Shown: one piece after another, positions 7,845 to 57,036 of the stretch
Layout of the letters: each line of letters begins with the position of its first letter
How positions within the stretch are numbered: position 1 is the first letter of the stretch
NCBI RefSeq assembly: GCF_001543145.1
Contig: NZ_CP014160.1
Location: forward strand, 372,001 to 436,000
DNA: 64,000 nt
Reading direction: 5' to 3'
Source: Aerococcus sanguinicola
Lineage (GTDB): Bacteria > Bacillota > Bacilli > Lactobacillales > Aerococcaceae
Notes under the pieces: generated by a model
What the model was told of the DNA's origin: nothing
Databases searched by the model: none
Seen by the model: the letters and a program-made list of their open reading frames with translations, nothing else
Program-made: the position numbers and the translations under genes

Positions 7845-8037
7845 GCAAGCCACACTTGGGGCCTTCGATTGAAGGTTGAGTGCTGGCAAGACACACTCGA
7901 GGCCTCCGATTGCAGACTGAGCGTTGCCAAGCCACACTTGAGGCTCCTGATTGAAGCTTGAGCGTTGCCAAGCCACACTTGAGACACCTGATTGAAGCTT
8001 GAGCGTTGCCAAGCCACACTCGAGGCCTCTGTTTGGG
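7845..8037. repeat. 41-bp hairpin-type array (CCACAC family), 5 units
   Basis: The word CCACAC (once ACACAC) recurs at 7850, 7891, 7932, 7973 and 8014, exactly 41 bp apart. Intra-unit pairing is weak here except in the first unit, where CCTTC and GAAGG close a GATT loop. Right-arm word TGTGGCTTGG on the minus strand resembles the array at 25554-25792, so this may be a decayed member of that family. It lies just 3' of rpoZ. Confidence 0.85.
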
Positions 8038-8052
8038 AATTGAATCCTTGCA

Positions 8053-8081
8053 GAGGCTGGGCGCTAGCGCTCCCTCACACC
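8053..8081 (-). other. Partial 3'-gene element after rpoZ
   Basis: Directly after the rpoZ stop codon the minus strand reads GATA then GGGTGTGAGGGAGCGC, the constant 5' flank of the elements found after thiT, the GW protein gene and uvrB. Here it continues into a short GCGCTAGCGC palindrome and the rest of the element is missing. Confidence 0.7.
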
Positions 8082-8288
8082 CTATCTTAACGATTCTGGG
8101 TCGATAACTAGGTCGTTGGAGGTGATTTCTTCTAGGGCTTGGCCGACGTACTTGGGTGAGCGGTATTCGTTGAGCATGGGGTTGCGGTTGACTTGTAGGT
8201 CGTGGGCGCGTTTGGCGGATACGCTGCACAGGGAGTATTTGGAGTTTACTTTTTCGAGTAAGCGGTCAATGGATGGGTAGATAATCAT
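8082..8288 (-). CDS. rpoZ: DNA-directed RNA polymerase omega subunit
   Basis: Small subunit that helps fold and assemble the beta' subunit of RNA polymerase. The 68-residue protein begins [20 protein letters not shown] and contains the conserved KRAHDL segment followed by NEYRSPKYVGQALEEI, the hallmark of RpoZ/RpoK proteins in Firmicutes. Its ATG overlaps the last base of the gmk stop codon, the standard gmk-rpoZ arrangement, so translation is likely coupled. Immediately downstream lie a partial 3'-gene element and a hairpin array instead of coaBC. Confidence 0.95.
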   Translation of the reverse strand: MIIYPSIDRLLEKVNSKYSLCSVSAKRAHDLQVNRNPMLNEYRSPKYVGQALEEITSNDLVIDPESLR

Positions 8289-8920
8289 TAATTAGTCTCT
8301 CCTTCGTCTAAGTAATTCTCAACCACGTCATCGATGAAGCGGTCAACTTTGAGGTGTTCCGCTTGGATGATGGTTTGGATGTTTTCAACAGCTTTGGATA
8401 CGTCATCGTTTTCAACAACATAATCATACTGGGTCATTAATTGTAATTCGCCCCGGGCTTGTTCCATACGCTTGGCGATGACGTCAGGGGCATCGGTGCC
8501 GCGGTTGACGATCCGGGTTTCGAGTTCGCCCAAGTTTGGTGGCGCTAGGAAAATAAAGACCCCGTCCGGCATCCGGCGTTTCACCTGGAGGGCGCCTTGG
8601 ACTTCAATCTCCAAGAAGACGTCCTTCCCCTGCATAGTCATGTCTTCAATATAGGCCAAGGGGGTGCCGTAATAATTGCCCACGTATTCGGCATATTCTA
8701 ATAATTGTTCTTCTTCAATCATCTGCTCGAACTTGCTGCGGCTAACGAAGAAATAGTCCTGGCCATTCACTTCGCCCTGGCGCGCTTCCCGTGTTGTTGC
8801 TGAGACAGAATAGAAGAATTGGTTACGATCGTGGTCCGTATCGAACAAGGCTTTTCGCACGGTACCTTTTCCCACCCCAGAAGGGCCTGATAAAACAACT
8901 AATAATCCTTTTGATTTCAT
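8288..8920 (-). CDS. gmk: Guanylate kinase
   Basis: Phosphorylates GMP to GDP using ATP, a step in GTP and (p)ppGpp-linked purine metabolism. The 210-residue protein has the P-loop [10 protein letters not shown] at residues 10-19, the GMP-binding region with [17 protein letters not shown], and the lid region [15 protein letters not shown] then IFLAPP. Length is typical (about 205). AAAGGTG lies upstream of the ATG. It is the first gene of the minus-strand operon and is divergent from the SOS-type promoter of the YolD-like gene, 150 bases away. Confidence 0.97.
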
Positions 8921-9069
8921 AGAACACCTTTCACCCTCTGAATTTATATAACAACTATAGTAACATAAATCTCAGCCTTTGACAGTAAGATTACAATTTT
9001 TTTATCATTCTGACCCGTCGCTGATCTGATAGGTCCATTATAACATGAATCAAATTTTTTGTTTTAATA

Positions 9070-9120
9070 TTGACAAGGGAACAAGCGTTCGATATACTAA
9101 GGGTACAGAACATCCGTTCC
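9070..9120 (+). promoter_or_regulatory. Sigma-A promoter overlapped by two LexA (SOS) boxes
   Basis: TTGACA at 9070-9075, a 17-bp spacer, then TATACT at 9093-9098. Two perfect GAAC-N4-GTTC half-site pairs lie at 9079-9090 (inside the spacer) and 9108-9119 (just past the expected start site). The Firmicutes LexA/DinR consensus is CGAACN4GTTCG. Repression of the downstream gene until DNA damage is inferred. Confidence 0.88.
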
Positions 9121-9167
9121 GGTATTTGCGATTATTCATGATAAAATTTCAGTAAAGGAGCCTTCAT

Positions 9168-9557
9168 ATGGAAAAAGTATCCCATTATCAACGTCTAAAA
9201 GCCCTCTTCACCCCCGCCAGCCAGCTTGCGGAAGTCAAGCCGAGTCAAATGAATACAGCCAGCCCAAGCGCTGAACCCAGCCAGCTGACCCAGACCATGC
9301 CCGCCCTAGCCATCGCCCGCGGACTGGACCAGGCCCTGAGCCAAGGCGACCCCATCTACCTGACCGTCAGTCGTAAAAATGGTCCCCTCCTGACCAAGGA
9401 CATCCTCTTTGGCACTGTTAAGCACATCGACAACCACAAAGAACGCATCGTCTTCGCCGAAGCCCTCAACCCCGTCACCCACCTCATCGCCCTCGACCGC
9501 ATCCAGGCCATCAAAGCCGTGGGGAAAGAAAACTTGAAATCCCTCTCTAGCCGATAA
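9168..9557 (+). CDS. YolD-like protein, probable SOS-regulated
   Basis: A 129-residue cytoplasmic protein with a polar, low-complexity N-terminus (about 1-50) and a C-terminal half of short beta strands: DPIYLTVSRKNG, LFGTVKHIDNHKERIVFAE, HLIALDRIQAIKAV. This strand order and the G-x-V-x-x-I-D and L-D-x-I words fit the YolD-like family, which in Firmicutes usually sits beside a Y-family polymerase and is under LexA control. Here it stands alone between gmk and cls. AAAGGAG precedes the ATG by 7-8 bases, and a strong promoter with two LexA boxes lies upstream. Family assignment is from pattern, not a search; the regulatory call is firmer than the function. An intrinsic terminator follows at 9606-9637. 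Confidence 0.75.
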   Translation: MEKVSHYQRLKALFTPASQLAEVKPSQMNTASPSAEPSQLTQTMPALAIARGLDQALSQGDPIYLTVSRKNGPLLTKDILFGTVKHIDNHKERIVFAEALNPVTHLIALDRIQAIKAVGKENLKSLSSR

Positions 9558-9605
9558 CTAGGTCTCATACAGGGGCAAGCAATGATTAAAATATAAAATA
9601 AGATT

Positions 9606-9640: not shown

Positions 9641-9679
9641 TTATAGTGAGGAAGAGGTCTGCTTGCCTAGCAGAGGGCA

Positions 9680-9836
9680 ACTTGCTAATCGAGGGCCTGT
9701 TTGCAAGTTAGTGCGAGCCTACTTGCTAATCGAAGTTCTGTTTGAAAGTTGACGCAACCCTACTTTCAAACAGGGCTGGCATTCGAAAGTTACCAAAACC
9801 CTACTTTCAAACGGAGTCGCCATTTGAAACCTCCCA
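9680..9836. repeat. 41-bp hairpin array (ACTT family), 4 units
   Basis: Units start at 9680, 9721, 9762 and 9803. The first has ACTTGC paired with GCAAGT, the last two ACTTTC paired with GAAAGT, and the second is a hybrid (ACTTGC with GAAAGT). Lies between the convergent YolD-like and cls genes. Confidence 0.9.
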
Positions 9837-9970: not shown

Positions 9971-9975
9971 CTTCA

Positions 9976-11454
9976 TTATAAGATGGGCGAGAGGAGTCGT
10001 GATAAGTTCTGGCGGAGTTTTTTCCACCAGGATTGTTGGTCGAAGTAGGCAGCGTCCAGTGTGGTTGAGACCTTCAAGTCGTCCTGGTAGGCGGCTTTGA
10101 GTTTAGCCACCAGGTCCTTGTCATAGACAAAGGCGTTGACTTCAAAGTTCAGGCTGAAGGAGCGGATATCGAAGTTGGCGGTGCCGACACTGGCGACTTC
10201 ATCGTCGGCAATAACCACCTTGGAATGGAGGAAGCCCTTGTCATAGCGGTGGACGTGGACGCCTTTTTCGATGATCTCCCGGCAGTAGTACTCAGTGGCC
10301 CGGTAGACGAAGGGGTGGTCGGGCTTGCAAGGGATCATGAGGTGGACCTCAACCCCTGACAGGGCCGCGATTTCCAGGGCTTCGTAGACACTCTCATCGG
10401 GTATGAAGTAGGGAGTCTGGATGTAGAGGGTGTGCTCGGCCGAGTTGATCAATTGGATGTAGCCCAGCTTGATCTGGTCGGTGTCGTCTTCCGGCCCGCT
10501 GGACACAATCTGCATGGGGACGTGACCGTGGTCTGCCTCGTTGACTTCCGGGAAATAGGACCGGGCGTCATCCGAGATCTCCAGGAAGTCGTCGTAGCTG
10601 TAGTCCATGGAGGCGCACCAGTCGCGGATAAAGCGGGTCTGCATGGCTTGGACCGCTTCCCCGCGAACGCGCAGGTGGGTGTCCCGCCAGTAGCCCAGGG
10701 GCCCCAGTCCGATGTATTCCTTGGCGATGTTGAAGCCACCGACATAGCCTAAGTCACCATCGATAATGACCAATTTGCGGTGGTTGCGGAAGTTGAGGCG
10801 CAGGTCGACCAGCCAGAAGCCCCGGCTAAAGAAGCCACTGGTCTCTGCCCCTGCCTCCTCCAGCCGGTTGATGTCCTTACGACTGAGTTTCCGGCTGCCT
10901 AAAGGATCATAGAGCAGGCGGACTTTGACCCCCGCCTCTGCTCGCTCAGCCAGGGCTTCCACCACCTGGGAGCCCATCTCATCGGAAGAGAAGATGTAGT
11001 ACTGGATGTGGATATGGTCCTTGGCCTGGCGGATATCTTCCAGGAGCTGGCGCATCTTGGCCTTGCCATCGACGTAGAGATCCACATCATTGCTGTTGGT
11101 CAGGAGGGCATCATCCGTCTGGTAAAAAAGCTTGATCAGACTCTGCTGGCTGGAGGGATAAGTCTTCAAGTCCCGGTGCATGCCATCTTCATTGATGTAC
11201 TTATCGACCAGGCTGCTCATCCCCATAACTTGCTGTTGGGAGAGGGAAAAAATCTTGTCGTCGGACAGGCGTCGGCCAACGAAGAAATAGAGAATAAAAC
11301 CAAAACCAGGCAGGAGGATCAAGACCAAGAGCCAGGCCCAGATCGAAGTGACCGGACGGCGCTGGCGGAAGACCGTGAAGATCGCCAGGATGGTGTTGGC
11401 AATAATAAAGAGCGAAAATAAATTGACTAAAACAGTTTGTGTTGTTTCTAACAT
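9976..11454 (-). CDS. cls: Cardiolipin synthase (phospholipase D family)
   Basis: Condenses two phosphatidylglycerol molecules into cardiolipin at the cytoplasmic membrane. The 492-residue product has two N-terminal membrane spans (about residues 5-25 and 33-55, ending in FILYFFVGRRL) and two PLD catalytic motifs, HRKLVIIDGDLGYVGG near 221 and HSKVVIADDEVASVGTAN near 408. Length matches Firmicutes cardiolipin synthases (about 480-510). The open frame extends 46 codons further upstream through a repeat remnant, but ATG 11454 has AAGAGGTG in front and begins at the normal N-terminus, so the longer start is rejected. A terminator lies just downstream. Confidence 0.95.
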   Translation of the reverse strand: MLETTQTVLVNLFSLFIIANTILAIFTVFRQRRPVTSIWAWLLVLILLPGFGFILYFFVGRRLSDDKIFSLSQQQVMGMSSLVDKYINEDGMHRDLKTYPSSQQSLIKLFYQTDDALLTNSNDVDLYVDGKAKMRQLLEDIRQAKDHIHIQYYIFSSDEMGSQVVEALAERAEAGVKVRLLYDPLGSRKLSRKDINRLEEAGAETSGFFSRGFWLVDLRLNFRNHRKLVIIDGDLGYVGGFNIAKEYIGLGPLGYWRDTHLRVRGEAVQAMQTRFIRDWCASMDYSYDDFLEISDDARSYFPEVNEADHGHVPMQIVSSGPEDDTDQIKLGYIQLINSAEHTLYIQTPYFIPDESVYEALEIAALSGVEVHLMIPCKPDHPFVYRATEYYCREIIEKGVHVHRYDKGFLHSKVVIADDEVASVGTANFDIRSFSLNFEVNAFVYDKDLVAKLKAAYQDDLKVSTTLDAAYFDQQSWWKKLRQNLSRLLSPIL

Positions 11455-11743: not shown

Positions 11744-11900
11744 GTCTATCTGCTTTCAGCGCTCCCGAGCGCAAATCGGCGCTGACTATTTGCTCTCAAA
11801 GCTGGCGAAGGCAAATTGGCGACTCGCTATTTGCTTTCGGAGCTTGCGAGCGCAAATTGGCGACTTGCTATTTGCTTTCAGCGCTCCCGAGCGCAAATAG
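11744..11900. repeat. 41-bp hairpin array (CTATTTGC family), 4 units
   Basis: CTATCTGC/CTATTTGC at 11746, 11786, 11827 and 11868 pairs with GCAAATAG-like words about 20 bp later. In the last unit CTATTTGC and GCAAATAG match perfectly. Lies between cls and thiT. Confidence 0.9.
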
Positions 11901-11922
11901 TCGCCAAGTCTCACACCCTTCC

Positions 11923-12041
11923 TAGTCGGGTTCGGTCGCGCAGAAGTGGCTCCTCTTCACAAAATCCCTGCGAAGTCTCTCGACTTCTCCGGTCTTTTGC
12001 TCCAGAGGTCCACTTCTACCCGCGCTCCCTCACACCCTTCC
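11923..12041 (-). repeat. 3'-gene structured element after thiT
   Basis: On the minus strand, a few bases past the thiT stop, GGGTGTGAGGGAGCGCGGG, then AGAAGTGG, an inner GAAGTC/GACTTC hairpin, CCACTTCT and the constant end CGAACCCGACTA. Same orientation relative to the gene as the copies at 18809-19046 and 26190-26305. Confidence 0.85.
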
Positions 12042-12641
12042 TTAATCATTCAGGAGTCTCGACCGTTCTTTGCGCGAGATGTACTTGGTGTAGCGCGGGA
12101 TGAAGTATTTGGCGGAGACGTTGAGGGTGACGATTAGGATGGCTAGGGCGATGCCTAGGTTGAGGAGGAAGCTGAGGCCGTTGGTGCGGAAGGCTTCGGC
12201 GAGGCCGGTGCTTTCGGCTTGGATCCAGACCTGGTCGACGAAGCGACAGATAAAGTAGCAGAGGACACCGATTAGCGACCCGGTGACCAGGTTGAGATAG
12301 ACTGAAGACATCCGTCGATTATGCAAGGTGCGTTGGAGGTTGCGGGCAAAGAGTCCGGCGAATCCGACAGCGGCTGAGGCAATGACCAAGGCTAGGCTGT
12401 GGGGCCAATTGGTCAGGGCGTCGGGCACCTGGTAGAGCTGGATGATGCCCACCAAGCCACCCGCCAAGCAAGCTGGCAGAGCTCCCCGGCGGAAGGCATA
12501 GAAGAGGATGAGGACGAGTCCCATCTCCAGACTCAGTCCCGTCTCTCCTAGTTCAGCGGGGAAGACCAGCTGCAAGAGCCCAGCCAGTAGTGCCAGTAAA
12601 AAGCCTTCAATGATTGTCATAAATCGCTGTGATGCTTTCAT
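12042..12641 (-). CDS. thiT: Energy-coupled thiamine transporter S component ThiT
   Basis: Membrane protein of 199 residues with about six hydrophobic segments. The FRRGALPACLAGGLVGIIQL segment, the middle PHSLALVIASAAVGFAGLF segment and the late FRTNGLSFLLNLG segment resemble ThiT, the thiamine-binding S component that docks on the shared ECF energizing module. The family's usual length is about 180-200. The ATG lies 3 bases after the rnjB stop, so it is in an operon with RNase J, and no TPP riboswitch separates them. The assignment rests on pattern; another small ECF S component is possible. Confidence 0.75.
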   Translation of the reverse strand: MKASQRFMTIIEGFLLALLAGLLQLVFPAELGETGLSLEMGLVLILFYAFRRGALPACLAGGLVGIIQLYQVPDALTNWPHSLALVIASAAVGFAGLFARNLQRTLHNRRMSSVYLNLVTGSLIGVLCYFICRFVDQVWIQAESTGLAEAFRTNGLSFLLNLGIALAILIVTLNVSAKYFIPRYTKYISRKERSRLLND

Positions 12642-14348: not shown

Positions 14349-14605
14349 AGAAACCTCCTTAAATGAATTATCCCTAGACAGAAACAGAGCACTCCAACCC
14401 TCTAAATCGGCATGAGTGCTTGCTTCTAAACTAGATTTTTATTTTATAAATTTACTTTTAAATTTTTGGCATTGGTGAATAATGTTAAACACTCTGTTCT
14501 AAAGAAGTCTAACGAATGCTCACCAGCACCGTTTAATTTAATGCTTCTTATTTTTTAGCACCGCTGGTAGCCGATTGAGCACACTTCTCACCGCCACTTG
14601 ATTTA

Positions 14606-14781
14606 TGAGCAGTAGTGGAGCTTTGAAGTTGGTCCTTAGCCATGAAAAAGCAAGCGATGTGAATTAGGGATAGTTGGCTTTAGCCTTTCTAGCCCTTTGA
14701 AGCTCGCTAGGTGAGGGACCTTGGCCCGAACCGATGCCATGGCTCTTCAAGGACCAAATTCAAAAGTGGAACGAATGCTCA
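14606..14781 (+). repeat. 175-bp inverted-repeat element, copy 2
   Basis: Full copy between asd and rnjB. The inner arm word TTGGTCCTT occurs on the left and, inverted, on the right. A stray right end (ACGAATGCTCACCAGCAC) lies at 14513-14531. Confidence 0.9.
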
Positions 14782-14802
14782 TCAGCACCATTTATCTAAA
14801 GC

Positions 14803-18808: not shown

Positions 18809-18926
18809 GGGTGTGAGCAAAGGCGATTAGAAAGGGATGACTGGAGGCAAAGAGGATAAGAGCGGCTTTAGCCGGTCGTTCCACTTTGCAGAAGTCACTC
18901 CCTTTCTGCCTTTGCGAACCCGACTA
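18809..18926 (+). repeat. 3'-gene structured element, variant stems
   Basis: Starts at the base after the stop codon with GGGTGTGAG and ends with CGAACCCGACTA like the other copies, but the stems are different: GCAAAGGC with GCCTTTGC, and AGAAAGGG...GACT with AGTC...CCCTTTCT. An inner GGCTTTAGCC hairpin is also present. Confidence 0.85.
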
Positions 18927-18930
18927 GGAA

Positions 18931-19046
18931 GGGTGAGAGGGAGCGCGGTTAGAAGTGGACCTCTGGAGCAAAAGACCGAAGAAGTCTGAAAGACTTCGCA
19001 GGGATTTTGTGAAGAGGAGCCACTTCTGCGCGACCGAACCCGACTA
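18931..19046 (+). repeat. 3'-gene structured element, common stems
   Basis: Second element in tandem, GGGTGAGAGGGAGCGCGG to CGAACCCGACTA, with AGAAGTGG/CCACTTCT and an inner GAAGTCT/AGACTTC hairpin. Nearly identical to the copy after uvrB. Confidence 0.88.
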
Positions 19047-19084
19047 GAATATGTAACAAAAGTTTTCAACTTTTGTTATCCTCT

Positions 19085-19144: not shown

Positions 19145-19584
19145 CCTGCCTCTTCGACAGCGATTTGGCAGTTTTTTCGCGAGTTACTGCCTATTCTATT
19201 GAGAACTGGCAGCTTCTCAGCATCTTACTGCCTCTTCTCTTAAGAACTGGCAGTTTCTTGGCACCTTACTGCCTCTCCTCTTGAGAACTGGCAGTTTCTC
19301 CGCAAGTTACTGCCTTTTCTCTTAAGAACTGGCAGTTTCTCCGCAAATTACTGCCTTTTCTCTTAAGAACTGGCAGTTTCTCGACATATTACTGCATTTT
19401 CTTCCGCGATATTGCAGTTTCTCGACGCGTTACTGCATCTTCTTCCGTGATAATGCAGTTTCTCAGCGCGTTACTGCATCTTCTCCCGTGATATTGCAGT
19501 TTCTCGACGCGTTACTGCATCTTCACTCGCGATATTGCAGTTTCTCGACGCGTTACTGCAACTGCGCTCATGATATTGCAGTTT
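19145..19584. repeat. 41-bp hairpin array (ACTGC family), 11 units
   Basis: TTACTG at 19184, 19225, 19266, 19307, 19348, 19389, 19430, 19471, 19512 and 19553, all exactly 41 bp apart, plus a partial first unit. Early units pair ACTGCC with GGCAGT; the later ones pair ACTGCA with TGCAGT. The switch occurs on both arms at the same unit. Lies between convergent genes. Confidence 0.95.
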
Positions 19585-22446: not shown

Positions 22447-22606
22447 CTATTTGCCTTTGACTGACCTGAGTGCAGATAGCAGGTCGCCAGTTTGCACTCG
22501 AGCGCTCTGAGCGCAAATAGCAGCTCACCAGTTTGCATTCGAGTGACCTGAATGCGGATAGCAAGTCATCAATTTGCATTCGAACGCTCTGAGTGCAGAT
22601 AGCAAG
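22447..22606. repeat. 41-bp hairpin array (CTATTTGC family, reverse orientation), 4 units
   Basis: GCAGATAG/GCAAATAG words at 22472, 22513, 22554 and 22595, 41 bp apart, paired with TTTGCA-type words upstream. Same stem family as 11744-11900 and 29051-29249 but on the other strand. Confidence 0.9.
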
Positions 22607-22673: not shown

Positions 22674-22846
22674 TGAGCAGGAGTGGAGCTTGAAAGGGAT
22701 CGTTAGCCGTGAACAAGCAAGCGAAGCGAATTACGTATCGTAGGCGCAGCCGTACGAGACGTTTGAGTCTCGCTAGGTGAGGGACCTTGGCCCGAACCGA
22801 TGCCACGGCTCTTTAACGATCACTTTCAAGACGGAACGTATGCTCA
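22674..22846 (+). repeat. 175-bp inverted-repeat element, copy 3
   Basis: Full copy in the pnp-rpsO spacer. Arms carry GATCGTTAGCCGTG and, inverted, GATCGTTAAAGAGCCGTGG: both differ from copy 2 in the same places. Confidence 0.9.
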
Positions 22847-22911
22847 TCAGCACAGTCCCCCACACAACCACTATCAAAGCACCAAACAAAAAGCAGCTTG
22901 GAATCTACTCA

Positions 22912-23085
22912 TGAGCAGGAGTGGAGCTTGAGTTTGATCGTTAGCCATGAAAAAGAAAGCGATGTGAATTAGGGATCGTAGGCGCTAGCCGTACTAGCCC
23001 TTTGAAGCTCGCTAGGTGAGAGACCTTGGCTCTCACCGGTTCCATGGCTCTTTAACGAGCAAACTCAAGACGGAACGCATGCTCA
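22912..23085 (+). repeat. 175-bp inverted-repeat element, copy 4
   Basis: Full copy, arms with TTTGATCGTTAGCCATG against an inverted TTTGCTCGTTAAAGAGCCATG; one arm-arm mismatch. Confidence 0.88.
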
Positions 23086-23148
23086 CAGCACAATCCCCGC
23101 ACAACCACTAACAAAGCACCAAGCAAAAAGCAGCTTGGAAGCCAGTCA

Positions 23149-23322
23149 TGAGCAGAAGTGCAGCGTTGAAGTTGGGCCTTAGCCATGAAAAGCAAGCAAT
23201 GTGAATTAGGGATCGTAGGCGGAGCCGTACGAGCCCTTTGAAGCTTGCTAGGCGAGAGACCGAGGCTCGAGCCGGTGCCATGGCTTTTCAAGGCCCAAAT
23301 TCAACAGCGGAACGTATGCTCA
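23149..23322 (+). repeat. 175-bp inverted-repeat element, copy 5
   Basis: Full copy, arms with TTGGGCCTTAGCCATG and inverted TTTGGGCCTTGAAAAGCCATG. Confidence 0.9.
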
Positions 23323-23365
23323 CAGCACAGCTCCCAAAAAATCCAAGCTCATTTTTCTTAATAAA

Positions 23366-25553: not shown

Positions 25554-25792
25554 GCAACCCACAATCAAGCTGGTTGAGTGTGGGTTGATAATCGGCAAGG
25601 CACAATAAAACCGATCGAGTGTGGGTTGGCGAGCTCCAAGACACAGTGAACCTGCCCAAGTGTGGGTTGCCAATAGTTAAGGTACACTCACGATATACGA
25701 GTGTGGGTTGACAGTTTTCAATCCACACTCATAATGGCCGAATGTGGATTGACACCACCCAAGCCACAATCACGGCAGACGAGTGTGGCTTA
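25554..25792. repeat. 41-bp hairpin array (CCACA/TGTGG family), 6 units
   Basis: GTGTGG or ATGTGG at 25578, 25619, 25660, 25701, 25742 and 25783, each exactly 41 bp apart. Unit 1 pairs CAACCCACA with TGTGGGTTG, unit 5 AATCCACA with TGTGGATT, unit 6 AAGCCACA with TGTGGCTT: the third stem position changes on both arms together. Confidence 0.95.
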
Positions 25793-25986: not shown

Positions 25987-26160
25987 GAGCAGGAGTGGAG
26001 CCTTGAAAGTGATCGTTAGCCGTGACCAAGCAAGTGAAGCGAATTACGTATCGTAGGCGCCAGCCGTACGAAACGTTTGAGTCTCGCTAGGTGAGGGACC
26101 TTGGCCCGAACCGGTGCCACGGCTCTTTAACGATCACTTTCAAGAGCGCAACGCATGCTC
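25987..26160 (+). repeat. 175-bp inverted-repeat element, copy 6
   Basis: Full copy 3' of uvrB; arms carry GATCGTTAGCCGTG and inverted GATCGTTAAAGAGCCGTGG as in copy 3. Confidence 0.9.
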
Positions 26161-26189
26161 CTCAGCACCGTCCCAAAAATCACACCCTG

Positions 26190-26305
26190 TAGTCGGGTTC
26201 GGTCGCGCAGAAGTGGCTCCTCTTCACAAAATCCCTGCGAAGTCTTTCAGACTTCTCCGGTCTTTTGCTCCAGAGGTCCACTTCTAACCGCGCTCCCTCA
26301 CACCC
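26190..26305 (-). repeat. 3'-gene structured element after uvrB
   Basis: On the minus strand GGGTGTGAGGGAGCGCGG begins right after the uvrB stop codon and the element ends CGAACCCGACTA; AGAAGTGG/CCACTTCT and GAAGTCT/AGACTTC stems as in 18931-19046. Confidence 0.88.
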
Positions 26306-28785: not shown

Positions 28786-28804
28786 TCTTTTAGGGGCTGT
28801 GCTG

Positions 28805-28980: not shown

Positions 28981-29050
28981 AAGACAAACCCCCAGCTGAT
29001 TTTTGCTTGGTGCTTTGTTAGTAGTTGTGCAAAAGCTGTTCCGGTGAGAT

Positions 29051-29249
29051 GCTATCTGCTTTCGGGCCTCTTGAGTGCAAATTGACGAGCTGCTATCTGC
29101 TCTCAGGGCTTGAGAGCGCAAATTGACGAGACGCTATCTGCTTTCAGGACTCTTGAGTGCAAATTGGCAAATGCTATCTGCTCTCAGAGCTCTTGAGCGC
29201 AAATTGACAAGTGCTATTTGCTTTCGGGGCTCTCGAATGCAAATAGGCG
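29051..29249. repeat. 41-bp hairpin array (CTATTTGC family), 5 units
   Basis: GCTATCTG/GCTATTTG at 29051, 29092, 29133, 29173 and 29213 (steps 41, 41, 40, 40). Right arms GTGCAAAT or GCGCAAAT; the last unit pairs CTATTTGC with GCAAATAG perfectly, and its inner TTTCGG/CTCGAA part adds to the stem. Confidence 0.9.
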
Positions 29250-29350
29250 ACTTGCGAACGGCATCCCCACCCACAATAGGATTGTCATTTTTCCTAAGGC
29301 TGACAAGATGTTATACTTAGCTTTACAGAGAAGCGATGGGGGTGAAGATG

Positions 29351-29984: not shown

Positions 29985-30178
29985 ACTTGCCAAGAGACAC
30001 CCTCGTTTGAAAGTTGCCCCCCTCTGACTTGCAAAGCTGTCGGGTGTTTGAAAGTTAGTGCCATCGAACTTTCAAACTGGCGAGTCATTTGAAAGTTGAC
30101 ACCCTCTGACTTGCAAACTTAGCGGGTGTTTAAAAGTTGGCATCAGGCGACTCACAAACCAAGGCTCTATTTAAAAAT
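29985..30178. repeat. 41-bp hairpin array (ACTT family), 5 units
   Basis: ACTTGC, ACTTTC or ACTCAC at 29985, 30027, 30068, 30109 and 30150 (steps 42, 41, 41, 41), with GAAAGT right arms. Only the third unit (ACTTTCAAA) pairs fully with its right arm; the others look half-converted. Confidence 0.85.
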
Positions 30179-30290
30179 TCGCGGTCAACTACTCGCTAAT
30201 AGCAGTCTCATTAGTGAATACACTCCTTTTCCAAGAAAAGCAAGAGCTATATTTTCTAACAGTGATTAGAAATCCTATACCAGTTACTTG

Positions 30291-30466: not shown

Positions 30467-30486
30467 CTAGCACAATTTGTATACAA

Positions 30487-34989: not shown

Positions 34990-35144
34990 CTACTTGTAAA
35001 CAGAGGCTTTGTTTGAAAGTTCACTGCCTGCTACTTGTAAACAAGGGCCCTGTTTGAAAGTTAACCACATTCTACTTGTAAACAAAAGGCTTGTTTGAAA
35101 GCTCGCCGCCTGCTACTTATAAAGAAGGGCTTTGTTTGAAAGTT
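34990..35144. repeat. 41-bp hairpin array (ACTT/AAAGT family), 4 units
   Basis: ACTTGTAAAC or ACTTATAAAG at 34992, 35033, 35074 and 35115, exactly 41 bp apart; right arms GTTTGAAAGT. The arms pair as ACTT-x-x-AAAC with GTTT-x-x-AAGT. Confidence 0.9.
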
Positions 35145-35204
35145 CGCCCCCAATTCAAAACAATTCAATCGAGCTGACTTCTACTTCCACTCCTTGACAA
35201 CAAA

Positions 35205-36924: not shown

Positions 36925-36950
36925 CTTATGGGGAAAGGATTTGGATGGCA

Positions 36951-37145
36951 ACTTGCGAATGGAGGCTGGGTTTGCAAATTGGATTAGGGCTACTTGCGAA
37001 TAGGGCTGTTGTTTGCAAGTAGATCGGCGGTAACTTGCGAATGACCCTCCCCTTTGCAAGTAAGACAATTGCAACTCGCAAATGCCCCCTCTGTTTGCAA
37101 GTAGAGCACCAGCTACTTGCGAATGCCCCTCCCCTTCGCAAGTTC
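36951..37145. repeat. 41-bp hairpin array (ACTTGC/GCAAGT family), 5 units
   Basis: ACTTGC or ACTCGC at 36951, 36992, 37033, 37074 and 37115, exactly 41 bp apart; right arms GCAAGT or GCAAAT about 23 bp downstream. Unit 2 pairs TACTTGC with GCAAGTA fully. Confidence 0.93.
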
Positions 37146-47000: not shown

Positions 47001-50000
47001 CTATTTTCTCTTTCTTCTACCTAGTACTAAGCTACCAACACCTACAAATAGACTAATTGCAATTGCTCCAGCAGACATACCAGCCACTGCACCTGTTTGA
47101 GGTAAGCGGCTATTAGCAACTACACTTTGTTTTTCTTTTGCTTGCTTACGGTTAAATGAAGTTGTTTCTCCAGTAATCGTGTAGCCATCTCTAGTCTTAG
47201 AGTTTTCTAGGTTTGAATCTTGGGCTTTTGGATCTTCTGGCTTAGGTCCCTCTGGCTTAGGATCTTCTGGCTTAGGTTCCTCTGGCTTAGGATCTTCTGG
47301 CTTAGGATCTTCTGGTTTAGGATCTTCTGGCTTAGGATCTTCTGGCTTCGGATCTTCTGGCTTAGGATCTTCTGGTTTCGGATCTTCTGGCTTAGGTTCC
47401 TCTGGCTTAGGATCTTCTGGTTTAGGATCTTCTGGCTTAGGATCTTCTGGCTTCGGATCTTCTGGCTTAGGATCTTCTGGTTTCGGATCTTCTGGTTTCG
47501 GATCTTCTGGCTTAGGATCTTCTGGCTTAGGATCTTCTGGCTTAGGATCTTCTGGCTTAGGATCTTCTGGCTTAGGATCTTCTGGCTTAGGATCTTCTGG
47601 CTTAGGATCTTCTGGCTTAGGATCTTCTGATTTTGGATCCTCTGGTTTCGGATCCTCTGACTTAGGTTGGCAACATGGAATTTCAAGGATTTCTTTTGTA
47701 TTATCCGTAAACACAATCGTTAATCGACCATCTTTACTATAGATCTTCTTAATTCCTCTGCCATCTTTACCGTCTCTGATAAAGTGACGGCTCGATTCCT
47801 TACCTTCTGGATCTTTAACAATCACCCATAGACCACTGTCACCATCTGCATCCTTACCAGGAACTGTTTCAAGACTTGGTGAGCGACCGTCTTGGCCATC
47901 CTTGCCGTCACGAACGAATTCGCGTGAAACTTCATTACCATCTCCATCGAAGATAATAATCCATTGGCCACTATCCCCATGTTCATTCTTACCAGGTTCT
48001 ACTTTAGCAGAAGGGGTCTTACCATCTTGACCATCACGGATGAATTCACGAACGATTTCATTGCCATGACCGTCTTCGATAATCAACCATCTGCCCACAT
48101 TGCCTTGGCTATCTTTGCCTTTTTCAGTACGGATTTGTGGGGTTTGACCATCTTGACCATCCTTGCCATCGCGACCATGGTAGATGGTATGTGTTTCAGT
48201 CGAGCCATCTGGATGCGTTATCTTAATACTTAAGCCGATTTCTTTACCATCAGAATCAAGGATCTTTTCAGTACTTAGAAGCGGTGATTTCCCATCTTTT
48301 CCGTCCTGTCCATCCTTGCCATCGCGCACAAATTGACGGTCTAATTCTTGGCCCGTGTCACGGTCACGGATAATCAACCACATACCTGACTGTCCGTTGA
48401 AGGTACCAGGTTCAGTTGATGCAGTTATAGACTTGCCGTCTTTACCGTCACGAATGATGTGTGTATGGCTTGTTCCATTGGCATGGTGGATGGTGATTTC
48501 TAGACCTTCTGCAGTTTCTCGTGATGAGATATCAGCTGATTTACCATCTTGACCATCAGCAATAAATTCACGGTCAATTTCTTGAAGGGTCTCTCTATCG
48601 CGGATAATCAACCAAGCACCTGATTGTCCTTTATGGTCGCCACGTTCCGTTGTCGCAATAATGGATTTCCCATCGCGACCATCTTTTCCATCCTTACCAT
48701 CTTTCCCATGTTTAATCAGACGAGTTTCTTCTGACCCATCTGGATGGGTAATAGTAATCTTATAACCAATTTCTTGGCCATTCGGATCTACCAATGCTTC
48801 TGTCTTAATATCTGCAGACTTGCCATCCTTGCCATCTTTACCGTTGGCAACAAAGTCTCGATCGAGTTCTTTACCTGTTACACTATCTTGAACAATGATC
48901 CAAACACCATCTTGACCTTGGAAATGACCTGGTTCTGTAGAAACAGTCACTGACTTGCCGTCCTTACCGTCTTGGCCATCTTTCCCATCGGCTACAAATT
49001 CAGTAGAGACAATTTCATCAGAAGTGAATTGGCCGTCACCGTTCTTATCGAAGTAAGTGATAATCCAGCTGCCTGATTCTCCGGCTTCGTTTGGTCCATT
49101 CACGACGTGTACATAAGATGATTTACCATCTTTTCCGTCTTGACCATCTTGACCTGGAGTACCTTGGTCACCCTTTTCACCTTTTTCGCCATCTTTGACG
49201 AAGGTTTCTTTGATGATTTCGTTGCTTTCTGGGTCTCTCACAATGATCTTCACACCAGATTCAGAGTTTGGATCATTTGGATCTTTTTCAACACGTTCAC
49301 TTTCAACGATTGGCGTCTTGCCATCTTTACCGTCGGTACCGTTTGTACCATCGAAGATGAATTCACGGCTGATTTCACGTTCACCTGGGTCAACTTGACC
49401 GTTATTGTTGGTGTCTTCGTGAACGATTACCCATGTACCTGGGCGATCTTTACCACTTTCATCGGCTTTGGTTCCCCGTTCGGTCTTAGCTAGGACGGAT
49501 TTTCCGTCTCGGCCGTCTTGACCATCTTGGCCTGGGGTACCTTGTTCACCCTTCTCACCTTGTGGGCCTTGAGGACCTTGTTCGCCACGCTCACCTGGAT
49601 CACCCTTTTCGCCGTCTTTGACGAAGATTTCTTTGATGATGTCATTGGTTTCTGGGTCTCTGACAATGATCTTCACACCAGATTCAGAGTTTGGATCATT
49701 TGGATCTTTTTCAACGCGTTCACTTTCAACGATTGGCGTCTTACCATCTTTACCGTCGGTACCGTTTGTACCATCGAAGATGAATTCACGGCTGATTTCA
49801 CGTTCGCCTGGGTCAACTTGACCGTTATTGTTGGTGTCTTCGTGAACGATTACCCATGTGCCTGGACGGTCTTTACCTGTTTCATCGGCTTTGGTGCCGC
49901 GTTCGGTCTTAGCTAGAACAGATTTTCCGTCTCGGCCGTCTTGACCATCTTGGCCTGGGGTACCTTGTTCACCCTTCTCACCTTGTGGACCTTGCTCACC

Positions 50001-52841
50001 TGGATCACCTTTTTCGCCATCTTTGACGAAGGTTTCAGAGATTAACTCACCTTGACTTCCGTCTGGGTTCACCTTATAAACACGGATCCATGAACCGCTT
50101 GGACTATTAGGATCGGCTGGATTTTCTTTACCACGTTCAGTCTTAGCGGTTACAGAAGTTCCATTGGTGCCGTTGTTTCCATCCGTCCCGTCTTGCCCAT
50201 CTGGGATAAAGATAACCTTCTCATCTTCAAACTGGTTAGTATTCGGATTGAAGATCTTAATCGTAACTCGAGAGCCTCTCACTTCCTTGCCAGTTTCTGG
50301 GTGTCGGTCGGTTACCCGTGTCGTTTCAACAATCGGTTTACTTGGTAGCAATGGTTCCTTAGGTTTAGCTGCTGGAATTTCCACCCGTCGTCCAGTGTTG
50401 TAGATAATGGTGACACTGCCGTCAGGATTGGTCTTAGTTTCAGTAATTGCTTCAAAATTATACCCAAAGATTTGACTTTGTGGCTCTTGAACAACTTCAC
50501 GAGAAACTTCCCGCCAGTATTGACCCCGCATATATCTAAAGTTATTAGGATTGAAGCCAGGAACGTTTTCTGGATTCACATGTTCATAAAGAACTCGTAC
50601 ACGGCCATCTTGTCCTGGACGAATTTCACGAATCTGACCTGCCGGAAGAGAAGGATCATAGCGGAATTCTGTTGGATATGAAGAATCTTCAACCGTCATT
50701 TCATAAGCAGGGCCAGTCTCAACTTGTTGTTGTCTTCTTTGGTAAACATAAGTGATTTCTTGGGTCATACCTGCTTTAAAGTTTCCACTGGTTGTCCGTC
50801 CATCTGGCGAATAAGTCGGATTATTTCTTGGAGCTTCGGTTCGAACGAAGGTATAACCTGGACGATTTTCCGCACCTGTTGTGTATTGCTCGTTGACGGT
50901 CCCATATTGCGGAGTTTCTGTAATCGTATCGTCAACACTCACGACACGGCCGTTCTCATCAACGGTTTCATAGCGGTGACGTTCAACAAAGATCCCAGGT
51001 GTATTCTGACCTGAAGCGGCAGATGAACTATGAGTTGTTGAAATCGTTAAGGTTTTCCAATGCTCTCTAGAATTAGACTCATTATTTTTGTTTCTAAGCG
51101 TCAAATGCATTTCGCTGTTAATCCGTTGATTAGCTTGTTGGTTTTTCGGACTAGTCACCGTATAAACGATATACTTCTTACCAGTAGCTGGCCCATTACC
51201 TACATTAAAGCGTACACCTTCAGAATCTTGATAAGATCTTCCAGAAACTTCACGAACATAGCGCGGATTTACTTCCGGATTAAAGCTATCCGTAAAGGCA
51301 CGATCGTCCAAGACCTCATAAACCTTCATGGATTCCAGATTACTAGTATTTGATTCAAAGAGAATCGTGTGTGGTCCATGGTTCATATTACGTCCGTCAC
51401 GGTTGATATACCAAACTTCTTTGGCTGTATAGTGGTTGGGATCTGTTCGATTCGTCTCAACGTGCGTTCCATCAACCGCTCGATATTTATTATTGGTAGC
51501 GTCACCGTTGATATTATTAAAGTGGTAGGCAATATTTTCTGTGTATGGTGTTCCTGCAATCGTCACGGTGACAGGATAATTCTTGAAATTATCTGTAATC
51601 TTATCGTAGAAAGGCTGAGTCCCTTGGCGTAGAGCAGCTCTTATATTATTCTTACCATTCACCCAGTCTGTAAAGCGGTAAATCACTCGGTTCTGATCAG
51701 CGTCATAGTAAGCTTTAGCAACAACTGCATTACCAGGACCGATTAAATCTTTAGGAGTTGCTGGGATATTAAGGCCACCCGGTCTTAGATATTGACCATA
51801 ATCAAGAATAAAGTAGTCCCCTGCTTGCACTTGCCCGGAGACTGCGATATCGACATCAAGACGAGCATAGCCACCTTCATTATCATGAACATAGTCTGTT
51901 TCACGATTACTACCATCAAGTTGCTTAAAGTCAGCATTAGTCACTTGAATTTGGTTTGCGACATTCTGTCCTCCACGAACAGACCAGCTGCTGGTAGGTA
52001 AAACCGCAAAAATTTGTCCTTTTTCACGTAAGCGATGGCTCTCTGCATAGGCTAAAGCTGCTTTTGTTAATTCCTCTCTCAAACTTAAGCCATTGCTTAT
52101 ATTTTGAGGATTAATCTCAGCGAGTAAACCTTCAACATCTTTCGGATCATAAACTTCCGCTAATTTAGAACGTAAGACCTGCTTGGGATTATCAGAAGCT
52201 GCAAGTTCTTTTGCGAAATCATCGAGCGCTGCTTGTTGATTGGTATCGCTCGTATTTTCATTCTTAACAGCGTTTTGATGGGCATTTCTCTGTTGATTTT
52301 CTTCTAGGATAGCCTTCTCCTTAGAATCAGCTACCGAAGATTTTTCACTAGAAGGTTCATTAATATCTTGTGTCTTATTTTTTTCTTTGTCTTCATTATG
52401 ATTAGAATCAACAGTTAATTCTTCAGGTTGTTTATCCTGTGTATTTACTTCAACAGGTGTTTTTGTATCATTTTTCTCTTCTTTCGAATTATTGTCTAAT
52501 GGACTTGTTTCATCACTAGACTCCATATTTGATTGTTCACTATTGTTTGGAATTAAATTAGAATTTAGTTCATTTTCTGGATTTTCTAGCCCGTTATTGT
52601 TTACAGTATCTTCTACTGCTGGCGCGTCTATTGGCACATCTGAAATTGCGCTTTCAGAAGCTTCGACTTTTTCTTGTTCTTGAATACTCGCTGCTTGGAC
52701 GACAGCGACATTTCCAGCAAAAAGTAAGCCTGCTGCAACTGCCACAGAGGCTACACCAATATTTAATCGTTTAATCGAATAACGATAAAACTTGTTACTT
52801 TGTTTTTCCTCTCTAAGCTTAGTATTATTTTTTCCAACCAT
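47001..52841 (-). CDS. Giant LPXTG surface protein with collagen-like and PEDPK repeats
   Basis: The 1946-residue protein has a YSIRK-like export signal (YSIKRLNIGVASVAVAAGLL), an acidic Ser/Asn-rich stretch, an adhesin-like head of about 400 residues (roughly 280-640) with EVLDDRAFTDSFNPE, a MucBP-like segment (YETVDENGRVVSVDDTITET and ITYVYQRRQQQ), a long region of collagen-like G-x-y repeats (KGDPGEQGPQGEKGEQG) alternating with 45-residue modules ending FVRDGKDG, roughly 28 PEDPK units near the C-terminus, and an LPQTG anchor with a KRK end. Two 423-bp blocks within 49140-49916 are near identical. AGGAGGAAG precedes ATG 52841. The head suggests binding of a host ligand; which one is unknown. 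Confidence 0.92.
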   Translation of the reverse strand: MVGKNNTKLREEKQSNKFYRYSIKRLNIGVASVAVAAGLLFAGNVAVVQAASIQEQEKVEASESAISDVPIDAPAVEDTVNNNGLENPENELNSNLIPNNSEQSNMESSDETSPLDNNSKEEKNDTKTPVEVNTQDKQPEELTVDSNHNEDKEKNKTQDINEPSSEKSSVADSKEKAILEENQQRNAHQNAVKNENTSDTNQQAALDDFAKELAASDNPKQVLRSKLAEVYDPKDVEGLLAEINPQNISNGLSLREELTKAALAYAESHRLREKGQIFAVLPTSSWSVRGGQNVANQIQVTNADFKQLDGSNRETDYVHDNEGGYARLDVDIAVSGQVQAGDYFILDYGQYLRPGGLNIPATPKDLIGPGNAVVAKAYYDADQNRVIYRFTDWVNGKNNIRAALRQGTQPFYDKITDNFKNYPVTVTIAGTPYTENIAYHFNNINGDATNNKYRAVDGTHVETNRTDPNHYTAKEVWYINRDGRNMNHGPHTILFESNTSNLESMKVYEVLDDRAFTDSFNPEVNPRYVREVSGRSYQDSEGVRFNVGNGPATGKKYIVYTVTSPKNQQANQRINSEMHLTLRNKNNESNSREHWKTLTISTTHSSSAASGQNTPGIFVERHRYETVDENGRVVSVDDTITETPQYGTVNEQYTTGAENRPGYTFVRTEAPRNNPTYSPDGRTTSGNFKAGMTQEITYVYQRRQQQVETGPAYEMTVEDSSYPTEFRYDPSLPAGQIREIRPGQDGRVRVLYEHVNPENVPGFNPNNFRYMRGQYWREVSREVVQEPQSQIFGYNFEAITETKTNPDGSVTIIYNTGRRVEIPAAKPKEPLLPSKPIVETTRVTDRHPETGKEVRGSRVTIKIFNPNTNQFEDEKVIFIPDGQDGTDGNNGTNGTSVTAKTERGKENPADPNSPSGSWIRVYKVNPDGSQGELISETFVKDGEKGDPGEQGPQGEKGEQGTPGQDGQDGRDGKSVLAKTERGTKADETGKDRPGTWVIVHEDTNNNGQVDPGEREISREFIFDGTNGTDGKDGKTPIVESERVEKDPNDPNSESGVKIIVRDPETNDIIKEIFVKDGEKGDPGERGEQGPQGPQGEKGEQGTPGQDGQDGRDGKSVLAKTERGTKADESGKDRPGTWVIVHEDTNNNGQVDPGEREISREFIFDGTNGTDGKDGKTPIVESERVEKDPNDPNSESGVKIIVRDPESNEIIKETFVKDGEKGEKGDQGTPGQDGQDGKDGKSSYVHVVNGPNEAGESGSWIITYFDKNGDGQFTSDEIVSTEFVADGKDGQDGKDGKSVTVSTEPGHFQGQDGVWIIVQDSVTGKELDRDFVANGKDGKDGKSADIKTEALVDPNGQEIGYKITITHPDGSEETRLIKHGKDGKDGKDGRDGKSIIATTERGDHKGQSGAWLIIRDRETLQEIDREFIADGQDGKSADISSRETAEGLEITIHHANGTSHTHIIRDGKDGKSITASTEPGTFNGQSGMWLIIRDRDTGQELDRQFVRDGKDGQDGKDGKSPLLSTEKILDSDGKEIGLSIKITHPDGSTETHTIYHGRDGKDGQDGQTPQIRTEKGKDSQGNVGRWLIIEDGHGNEIVREFIRDGQDGKTPSAKVEPGKNEHGDSGQWIIIFDGDGNEVSREFVRDGKDGQDGRSPSLETVPGKDADGDSGLWVIVKDPEGKESSRHFIRDGKDGRGIKKIYSKDGRLTIVFTDNTKEILEIPCCQPKSEDPKPEDPKSEDPKPEDPKPEDPKPEDPKPEDPKPEDPKPEDPKPEDPKPEDPKPEDPKPEDPKPEDPKPEDPKPEDPKPEDPKPEEPKPEDPKPEDPKPEDPKPEDPKPEDPKPEDPKPEDPKPEEPKPEDPKPEGPKPEDPKAQDSNLENSKTRDGYTITGETTSFNRKQAKEKQSVVANSRLPQTGAVAGMSAGAIAISLFVGVGSLVLGRRKRK
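47230..47660 (-). repeat. 15-bp tandem repeat coding PEDPK
   Basis: GGATCTTCTGGCTTA and near variants repeat about 28 times in frame within the surface protein gene, with GGTTCC (PEEPK) and synonymous variants mixed in. The length is a multiple of three, so copy-number change alters the wall-spanning stalk without breaking the frame. Confidence 0.92.
49140..49916 (-). repeat. Duplicated 423-bp collagen-like module
   Basis: Two copies about 423 bp apart encode almost the same residues (VLAKTERGTKAD to GVKIIVRDPE). A difference of ETFVKDG and EIFVKDG and the linking collagen segment separates them. Confidence 0.85.
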
Positions 52842-55672: not shown

Positions 55673-56287
55673 ATGAAAGCCTTACTCTACAAAGACTGGC
55701 AAATCGGTCACAAGCTCTTGTTCCTATCCTTAGCGGTGAGCCTGCTGGTACTCTTTATTGTAGGAGATGGCCAGTTTCCGCTGTCACTCGGCCTTATGCT
55801 CGCCCTCTTCAATATCCGAAACATCGACGGGCTTGACGACAAGCGGCCCTACCAACAATTGATCCAGAGCCTGCCTGTCACTCGCAAGGAAGTGGTCGCC
55901 GGCAAGATCCTCTCCCACTTCATTCAAGTAGCCATCCTCATCATCCCGATCATTGGCTTGAACGCCTTGATCCCCGGCTATACGGCCAACAGCCTCTCTG
56001 AAGTCCTCTTGTTGGGCCTGCTTGCGGTTTTCCTACTTGTCGGCTACCAATTCACCTACACCCTCTTCGGGCCCGTCTTCATGAACTACGTCAGCATCGC
56101 CCTCTTCCTGGTCCTCATCACATTCGGCTGGTCCATCTTCAACAGCGCCTTCGTCCAAGGCCTCATCCGCCAGCTCCTGACCATGGACCAGACCCTCCTC
56201 ATCCTCTCCGCCAGCCTGTTCTGCCTCATCCTCGCCTCCGCCCTCTTCATCCTAACCGTGAAAATCTATGAGCGAAAAGACCTCTAG
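55673..56287 (+). CDS. ABC-2 type permease protein
   Basis: A 204-residue membrane protein with about six spans (for example KLLFLSLAVSLLVLFIVG, HFIQVAILIIPIIGLNALIP and LLLGLLAVFLLVGYQF) and the cytosolic loop KRPYQQLIQSLPVTRKEVVA typical of ABC-2/YhaP-like subunits. Its ATG follows the ATPase stop codon directly. With the ATPase it would form a homodimeric exporter. The 3' half has strong C-ending codon preference. No homologous substrate is evident. Confidence 0.85.
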   Translation: MKALLYKDWQIGHKLLFLSLAVSLLVLFIVGDGQFPLSLGLMLALFNIRNIDGLDDKRPYQQLIQSLPVTRKEVVAGKILSHFIQVAILIIPIIGLNALIPGYTANSLSEVLLLGLLAVFLLVGYQFTYTLFGPVFMNYVSIALFLVLITFGWSIFNSAFVQGLIRQLLTMDQTLLILSASLFCLILASALFILTVKIYERKDL

Positions 56288-56360
56288 TGACTGTGTGGTA
56301 ATCCCCATTGACCTGAAAAGCGACTAGATGGTCGCTTGTGGGGCTGGCAGGTGTGCTGGG

Positions 56361-56482
56361 ATTCGGCAATGTCGCTCAGGATAATGCCGGTACGCAGTCT
56401 GATTCGGCATTGTCTCCTGCGCTAATGCTGATACGCGATCTGATTCGGCAATACCTTCTAGATTAATGCCGTTTCAACAAGC
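56361..56482. repeat. 41-bp hairpin array (CGGCAT family), 3 units
   Basis: ATTCGG at 56361, 56402 and 56443, exactly 41 bp apart; GGCAAT or GGCATT pairs with AATGCC or AATGCT about 20 bases later. Confidence 0.88.
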
Positions 56483-56533
56483 CAGGCCTACTATTTTGAA
56501 TCAGTTCCTACTATATTAATACCAAATTTATAA

Positions 56534-56586
56534 CAAGCCAGGCTGCCTCCCCTCTCAAGCGGACAAGAGAAGCAGCCTGGCTTTTC
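56534..56586. terminator. Terminator between the ABC operon and the giant adhesin
   Basis: AAGCCAGGCTGC and GCAGCCTGGCTT arms plus an inner CTCTC/GAGAG part; T residues follow on the plus strand. Confidence 0.88.
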
Positions 56587-56659
56587 GATTTGTGCTGAAC
56601 TTGCTAGTTTTTCCTATGATGAAGCTCTTTCTCCGCGAGAAAGAGCCTTTCCTTTTGAG

Positions 56660-56880
56660 AAGAGGCAGTTTATAGCCGACTTACTGCCTCTTCTCTTAAG
56701 AATTGGCAGTTTCTTGCCGACTTACTGCCTCTTCTCTTAAGAACTGGCAGCTTCTTGCTGACTTACTGCCTCTTCTCTTAAAAACTGGCAGTTTCTTGCC
56801 GACTTACTGCCTCTTCCCTTGAGAACTGGCAGTTTCTTTCCGACTTACTGCCTCTTCCTTTGAGAACTGGCAGCTTCTTT
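56660..56880. repeat. 41-bp hairpin array (ACTGCC family), about 6 units
   Basis: TTACTG at 56681, 56722, 56763, 56804 and 56845, exactly 41 bp apart, plus a half unit before. Pairs ACTGCC with GGCAGT. Same stem family as the array at 19145-19584, 37 kb away. Confidence 0.93.
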
Positions 56881-56888
56881 GCCAGTTA

Positions 56889-57036
56889 CCGACATAAGAA
56901 GCCAGCTTATGTCACTTTCCAGCTGACTTAACGACATATCCTTTTCCTTATGTCGCTATGTCACCATGATACCGACAGATCCCTATCCCTTGTGTCGCTA
57001 AGTCACCAAGATACCGACATATCGCACGCCTCATGT
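56889..57036. repeat. 41-bp hairpin array (CGACATA family), 4 units
   Basis: CGACATA or CGACAGA at 56890, 56932, 56973 and 57015 (steps 42, 41, 42); TATGTC or TGTGTCG pairs on the right. It continues from the previous array without a gap but with a different stem. Confidence 0.88.

Follow-up and report, generated by a model that had tools for sequence, protein, structure and literature searches.

The 64,000-nucleotide stretch of Aerococcus sanguinicola DNA considered here (the window; positions 372,001 - 436,000 of a 2.03-Mb single-contig genome, G000) carries thirteen intergenic tandem arrays which share a pitch of about 41 bp but not a sequence, and the question it raises is what would hold one spacing constant among unlike repeats. 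The original prediction was that the shared period reflects a single copying or binding machinery, and that the arrays serve the nucleoid, the ends of transcripts or genome maintenance. The answer tentatively favoured here, drawn from the anatomy of the units and from their distribution on the chromosome, is that they are rows of protein-binding sites. A literature search turned up no description of these arrays, which is no proof that none exists.

Period and unit anatomy

All thirteen arrays proved to be real and lie where they had been placed. Tandem Repeats Finder (TRF) reported twelve of them, with a period of 41 bp (42 bp for the array at 56889), matches of 70 - 92% and indels of 0 - 4%, and the remaining one, at 25554, was not among its rows and was recovered by a lag scan. 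In the noncoding DNA of the window self-similarity at lag 41 extended over 1004 positions, against a median of 0 over lags 8 - 300, and the next peaks lay at 82, 123 and 164, which are multiples of 41; for coding DNA the lag-41 value was 0. When the lag scan was applied to the window and 20 evenly spread 20-kb stretches, 41 was the best lag in 30 arrays and the runner-up lag in 3; over 636 kb, partly picked for known arrays, 45 arrays were found at lag 41. Two doubts had been raised along with the prediction, that period 41 might not be enriched and that the arrays might be confined to one strain, and these were answered by the enrichment in the DNA examined and by the presence of arrays in a second genome of the genus (G001).

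The proposed division into at least five stem families is sound in so far as the sequences are unlike, but the families collapse into two groups with related half-sites. In the first group (A, B and C) the unit is built from two 12-bp half-sites in inverted orientation, with 9 bp between them and 8 bp after the second, the half-sites being CAAnCCACAmTC in A, CWACTTKCRAAY in B and CTATTTGCnYTC in C. Half-site centres are 21 and 20 bp apart, and orientation alternates about every 20.5 bp, or approximately two helical turns. The second group (D, E, E-prime and F) has shorter stems, with the halves 19 - 22 bp apart and, by eye, related outer bases (GWTA...TTTC). The span of the stem varies among families and the pitch is constant at 40 - 42 bp. 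A step of 41 bp throughout was too strict a claim: it is the dominant period, but the array at 56889 steps by 42, 41 and 42, C arrays step by 40 or 41, and E-prime (CGGACA) arrays, found outside the window, step by 42. Arrays that share one intergenic gap are, judged by eye, mostly of different families within one group, A occurring beside B or C and D beside E or F, with one D-D pair as the exception.

Within A, B and C, half-site sequence and spacer length are conserved and spacer sequence is not. Among 203 pairs of neighbouring units, mismatches amounted to 1071 of 4872 positions in the arms (0.22) as against 1768 of 3451 in the spacers (0.51), and when different arrays were compared identity was 0.67 - 0.72 in the arms and 0.32 - 0.37 in the spacers. 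The inner offset was 21 in 300 of 308 array units; outer steps departed from the mode in only 1 of 89 cases for A and 6 of 108 for B, those of C comprising 24 at 40, 17 at 41 and 2 at 33. When intergenic DNA flanking the arrays was aligned between the two genomes, gap openings numbered 87 for 908 substitutions (a few of the high-scoring segment pairs join paralogous repeats), and at that ratio the observed spacer substitutions would predict about 170 spacer indels. The units were sought with a fixed geometry (offset 20 - 22), so that badly broken ones escape detection, but the low indel rate given by TRF is independent of this. That the spacers vary freely in sequence yet hold their length supports a shared geometric constraint; a single machinery does not follow from it, there being two groups of sites and no protein having been found. 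Two further features were seen in this group. One A half-site variant, CAATCCACA (e.g. window 7846 - 8042), matches 7 of the 9 letters of the DnaA box TTATCCACA, B and C being unlike it by eye, and another B array (L161:9244 - 9482) shows by eye a 123-bp higher-order repeat of three units.

Chromosomal map, gene context and relatives

The window arrays are part of a chromosome-wide set. Pattern scans of the whole genome located 90 units of A and 100 of B, none of them outside 270 - 1535 kb, and 35 forward and 10 reverse hits for D; the reversed-pattern controls gave 0 in each scan. Merging of these hits, whose positions were transcribed by hand from the three scans, yielded 58 A/B/D loci in three blocks, at 270 - 531, 779 - 1216 and 1515 - 1555 kb. 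The origin is near 942 kb, where dnaA (941 kb) has dnaN and recF close by and where both GC skew and the coding strand change over. The opposite change falls between 1.88 and 1.90 Mb, and the point of the chromosome facing dnaA is at 1.96 Mb; a search for a dif site with a consensus sequence gave nothing clear. Around this terminus a stretch of about 749 kb, centred on 1929 kb, is free of arrays of families A, B and D, and a gap that large arose in 0 of 100,000 draws under uniform placement. In the 540 of these 749 kb that were examined for all families there were 0 arrays at lags 40 - 42, together with 15 copies of a dispersed element X and 14 of another, Y (both described below), while 51 arrays, along with 72 copies of X and 31 of Y, were present in 643 kb elsewhere, partly picked for arrays; families C, E and F were mapped solely within the stretches examined. 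Non-divergent gaps of at least 200 bp net of arrays, delimited by genes from a simple caller based on open reading frames, held an array in 32 of 101 cases within the blocks, 1 of 46 between blocks and 0 of 85 in the terminus zone (0/85 vs 32/101, p=2e-10). A direction rule for D was considered and dropped: left-arm loci are on the plus strand and the sole right-arm locus (7 hits) is on the minus strand, but the loci are too few, and of the remaining 3 of the 10 reverse hits two overlap forward arrays and one is a lone hit with 3 mismatches.

With respect to genes, the arrays are biased to gene ends. Within the blocks, 13 of 25 convergent, 19 of 76 tandem and 1 of 19 divergent gaps (same caller and size limit) held an array, the difference from divergent gaps having p=0.001 for convergent and p=0.07 for tandem gaps. 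In G000 and G001 a gene 3' end faces an array in 124 instances, arrays sharing one gap being entered separately, and in 98 of these a site resembling an intrinsic terminator lies between the two, as compared with 18 of 124 in shuffled segments. For the 36 arrays in convergent gaps such a site was present on both sides in 21, on one side in 13 and on neither in 2; the terminator finder may also score X or Y hairpins. A recurrent terminator-like hairpin (AACAAGCTAGCAAGG..CCTTGCTAGCTTGTT) flanks many B arrays, for example to the left of those at window 9678 and 36949 and in the stretches L011, L013 and L148, and in several places an A array lies on its far side.

The arrays of the window follow the anatomy described above, those of A, B and C carrying no strand assignment and those of D, E and F being on the plus strand. 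The first three are an A array of 5 units of 41 bp (7846..8042), a B array of 4 units in a convergent gap with a terminator-like site on each side (9678..9833) and a C array of 4 units (11746..11900). G001 was compared at ten of the window arrays, those from 19 to 57 kb, and in nine cases it has an array of the same family at the corresponding position. The D array at 19145..19584 has 11 units, every step being 41 bp, and 5 units in G001; a C array of 4 units at 22447..22602 and an A array of 6 units at 25555..25792 (lag scan; a terminator-like site on each side) are kept in place, and a C array of 5 units at 29052..29246 has 2 in G001. Family B is represented by an array at 29985..30221 (5 units by the scan, from 30025, and 6 by eye), one of 4 units at 34990..35145, which has 5 in G001, the difference being a single extra 41-bp unit, and one of 5 units at 36949..37145. 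An F array (CGGCAT/ATGCCG) of 3 units at 56360..56475, with 8 in G001, a D array (ACTGCM...KGCAGTTTCT, as at 19145) of 6 units at 56640..56876, with 4 in G001, and an E array (CGACATA/TATGTCG) of 4 units at 56885..57044, with 4 in G001, complete the set. Differences in unit number consist of whole units inside otherwise alignable arrays, as ordinary tandem duplication gives, so that the copying machinery of the original prediction is not needed. Six genes compared at these loci are 86 - 93.5% identical between the two genomes. At the tenth array (30 kb) G001 has two B units immediately after the adjacent C units and lacks the intervening Fic-domain gene (window 29336 - 29947), the C/B join being out of register by eye. 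Nine array-bearing stretches of G001, chosen for array hits, were placed on the G000 map, where seven fall in the same blocks and two outside the DNA examined. The best named matches to the pnp gene of G000 come from Trichococcus, Granulicatella and further Lactobacillales, in a collection from which its own genus seems to be missing; this agrees with an Aerococcus.

Beyond these two genomes the arrays are rare. Among 15 genus genomes the B pattern occurs in G000 and G001 alone, and a D array had matches in 3 of 40 genomes, the third (G031) belonging to another family and matching over 28 bases only. Neither 400 kb from six further genus genomes nor 400 kb from a set of eleven, of which nine lie outside the genus, contained a lag-41 array. 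The idea of a general 41-bp class in Bacilli was rejected, since no more than 3 lag-41 arrays, with a geometry unlike by eye, occurred in two of 80 named loci. Two of them (L039:893 - 1072 and 9974 - 10440), in a metagenome-assembled genome of Candidatus Tetragenococcus pullicola, one lying just after a pnp match, and the third (L056:12445 - 12571), in a Bacillus, were judged unrelated; one L039 array, sought in 198 genomes, gave a single weak hit. An origin in phages or plasmids was likewise set aside, as a D array had no match in phages and plasmids and a B array none in plasmids, and the exact B and D patterns were absent from viral contigs, though these collections may leave out near relatives.

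Possible roles of the arrays

A number of roles can be set against this evidence, some of them at the level of DNA and one at that of RNA. In A, B and C arm covariation is small (z > 0 in 6 of 36 arm pairs, with a top value of +3.1 at B pair 6 and a bottom value of -4.6), and in tandem contexts the sense strand showed G.U and A.C combinations at about equal frequency (115 vs 130 in 142 units, p=0.37). Because there is little covariation and no excess of G.U, these arrays look like sites in duplex DNA, and RNA hairpins are not supported as an account of them. In the second group D pair 5 reached z=+6.9, E pair 1 +5.0 and pair 6 +4.0, both strands being counted, and F pair 1 +7.4 in a set that mixes D and F and again counts both strands. 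In one orientation D pair 5 comprised 38 C-G, 26 A-T, 11 A-G and 3 others, and 36 sense-strand rows of D, F and E-prime had G.U 15 times and A.C 10 times. As these stems covary, D, E and F may have an RNA or cruciform role. Stem-loops acting at the 3' ends of transcripts, in termination, mRNA stability or processing, would suit the palindromic arms, the location at gene 3' ends and the behaviour of the D/E/F stems, but a terminator-like site generally comes first, a fixed loop length is not required of such structures, and the window had no Rfam match at the gathering threshold; taken over all families an RNA-level role therefore seems quite improbable, and the suggestion of a transcription-end array is not borne out for A, B and C in this form.

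The explanation tentatively preferred, though it is slightly less likely than not, is that the arrays are docking rows for a putative DNA-binding protein, probably with a nucleoid-level role like that of Noc or SlmA sites. Docking rows are suggested by the conserved words, the free sequence and fixed length of the spacers, the two-turn alternation and the location beyond terminators, and of the roles originally proposed that in the nucleoid would fit best in view of the terminus-free map. The weak RNA-pairing signal of A, B and C, the bias to gene ends and the retention of place and family at the loci compared in G001 count in favour of this explanation too. The protein would bind the half-sites, and the two-turn spacing would set neighbouring half-sites on one face of the DNA, so that bound dimers could touch; the arrays would grow and shrink by tandem duplication and loss, and their terminus-free layout may couple nucleoid position to division or organise origin-side domains, in the manner of Noc and SlmA sites. 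The number of cognate proteins is probably two, with A/B/C served by one and D/E/F by the other. A bolder and rather unlikely version is that, without Noc or SlmA, one or two proteins polymerise on phased arrays in untranscribed DNA, mark the origin side while leaving the terminus bare, and so cue the place and time of division. The matter bears on two questions about bacteria without recognised Noc or SlmA, namely how they keep division away from the nucleoid and how they mark the domains of their chromosomes; if a protein does bind the arrays, the genome offers ready sites, a prediction as to their spacing and a map with a bare terminus, all of which are testable. Spacers of fixed length and free sequence are in addition a clear natural example of apparent selection on the geometry of DNA.

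Several considerations weigh against docking rows with a nucleoid-level role. The map rests on three blocks, so that the independent evidence is thin and the p values overstate the terminus gap, and it was drawn from G000 alone, G001 being a 50-contig draft. The intervals at 531 - 779 and 1216 - 1514 kb are also nearly empty (1 of 46 gaps), and X and Y are themselves sparser near the terminus (X 15 vs 72 and Y 14 vs 31, in 540 and 643 kb). The polarity of A, B and C has no clear relation to replichore or gene strand, and a direction rule for these families was abandoned on that account. B pairs 6 and 3 do covary (z=+3.1 and +2.2), and the covarying stems of D, E and F are what RNA or a cruciform would predict too. 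A function of the B units would not be general, since of the 15 genus genomes only two are known to carry them. No cognate protein came to light, SlmA-type proteins lying outside the searches made.

The strongest rival, although a somewhat unlikely one, is a neutral or selfish palindromic repeat which has spread regionally and grown by tandem slippage with no function for the host. Head-to-tail units, whole-unit changes in copy number between species, the clustering in three blocks and the presence of X and Y in the same gaps are all as it would predict, and repetitive extragenic palindromes (REPs) are described as clustering near their rayt gene in some genomes (PMC2817692). It does not readily account for half-sites that remain alike while the spacers are near random, for a spacer length held far better than the flanks predict, or for the conservation of place and family across two species whose genes are only 86 - 93.5% identical, and a Y1 transposase was found in neither G000 nor G001. 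That last result bears equally on the improbable suggestion that the arrays are gene-end elements like REPs and bacterial interspersed mosaic elements (BIMEs), binding gyrase or another topoisomerase and absorbing supercoils driven by transcription. Alternating palindromic units between gene ends, most in convergent gaps and few in divergent ones, would suit such a role, but 0 of 20 convergent gaps in the terminus zone hold arrays, though convergent transcription occurs there. The likeness to REP/BIME elements, which are extragenic palindromes alternating in orientation and clustered (PMC2817692), ends with the fixed pitch of about 41 bp, the terminus-free map and the missing transposase: PF01797 had 0 matches in G000 and G001 and was present in 5 of the 15 genus genomes, all five without B-pattern hits. 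Identity with the REP-RAYT system was rejected for want of a cognate Y1-type gene in these two genomes. AAGTAG is a frequent reading of B half-sites, a GTAG-type head being a REP/BIME feature. Very improbable indeed is the proposal that the arrays are recombination or cassette sites, targets of gene gain and loss, as the Fic-domain gene missing from between joined C and B units in G001 might suggest; to the eye that join does not keep the register, housekeeping genes are among those lying between arrays, and in collections that may leave out near relatives there were no matches for the D array in phages and plasmids, for the B array in plasmids or for the exact B and D patterns in viral contigs.

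Comparison with known systems leads to a similar weighing. Noc and SlmA sites are under-represented near the terminus, and arrays of them placed there delay division (PMC4726725). Noc sites (Bacillus subtilis, Staphylococcus aureus) and SlmA sites (Escherichia coli) resemble the present arrays, as mapped in the three blocks of G000, in being dispersed palindromes depleted around the terminus; they differ in numbering about 70 sites of 14 bp for Noc and 24 - 52 palindromes for SlmA, whereas here 2 - 11 units form an array, the half-sites are spaced by about two turns and the sequences are several. In each of the 15 genus genomes a ParB_N search found a single protein, which could be ParB or Noc, and as there is only one ParB-type protein per genome there is by this test no second, Noc-like paralogue. 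TIGR arrays with Tas proteins (PMC12045711) likewise have tandem units with two conserved and two variable segments of about 9 - 12 nt; the present arrays differ in occurring at dozens of loci and in having spacers that are related within an array and are not unique guides. Identity with TIGR-Tas was rejected, PF01798 (Nop domain) having 0 matches in G000 as against matches in 4 of 14 control genomes. CRISPR was rejected because the half-sites vary and spacers are related within an array (identity 0.41 - 0.57, vs 0.32 - 0.37 between arrays). Pneumococcal BOX elements are likewise intergenic elements of a Firmicute, in which boxB copies are in tandem; the arrays would differ from them in the half-site geometry and in having several unlike sequences at one pitch. 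EFAR elements of Enterococcus faecalis are palindromic miniature elements of variable length near stem-loops, and in this they may resemble the arrays. BOX elements are named in a table of PMC2267715.

Other repeats and genes of the window

Element X is a dispersed repeat of about 185 bp (TGAGCAGGAGTGGAGC ... GCATGCTCA) with sharp ends and arms that seem by eye to covary; 87 copies were present in the 1.18 Mb examined, and those of the window, at 7519 - 7706, 14603 - 14793, 22674 - 23329 (three copies), 25987 - 26174, 28798 - 28982, 30291 - 30478 and 34704 - 34890, had no Rfam match. Element Y, also dispersed, is about 125 bp long (TAGTCGGGTTCGG ...), palindromic by eye, and adjoins many arrays; there were 45 copies in the same 1.18 Mb, and in the window it lies at 11917 - 12042, 18926 - 19047 and 26180 - 26315. 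The window also carries three long repeat-rich genes. One, at 47001 - 52841, combines a YSIRK signal with collagen-type repeats and includes a 15-bp repeat in 29 copies at 47230 - 47666; a second, at 57175 - 60180, has aRib domains, and the third, at 60468 - 63983, contains repeats of 234 bp as reported by TRF.

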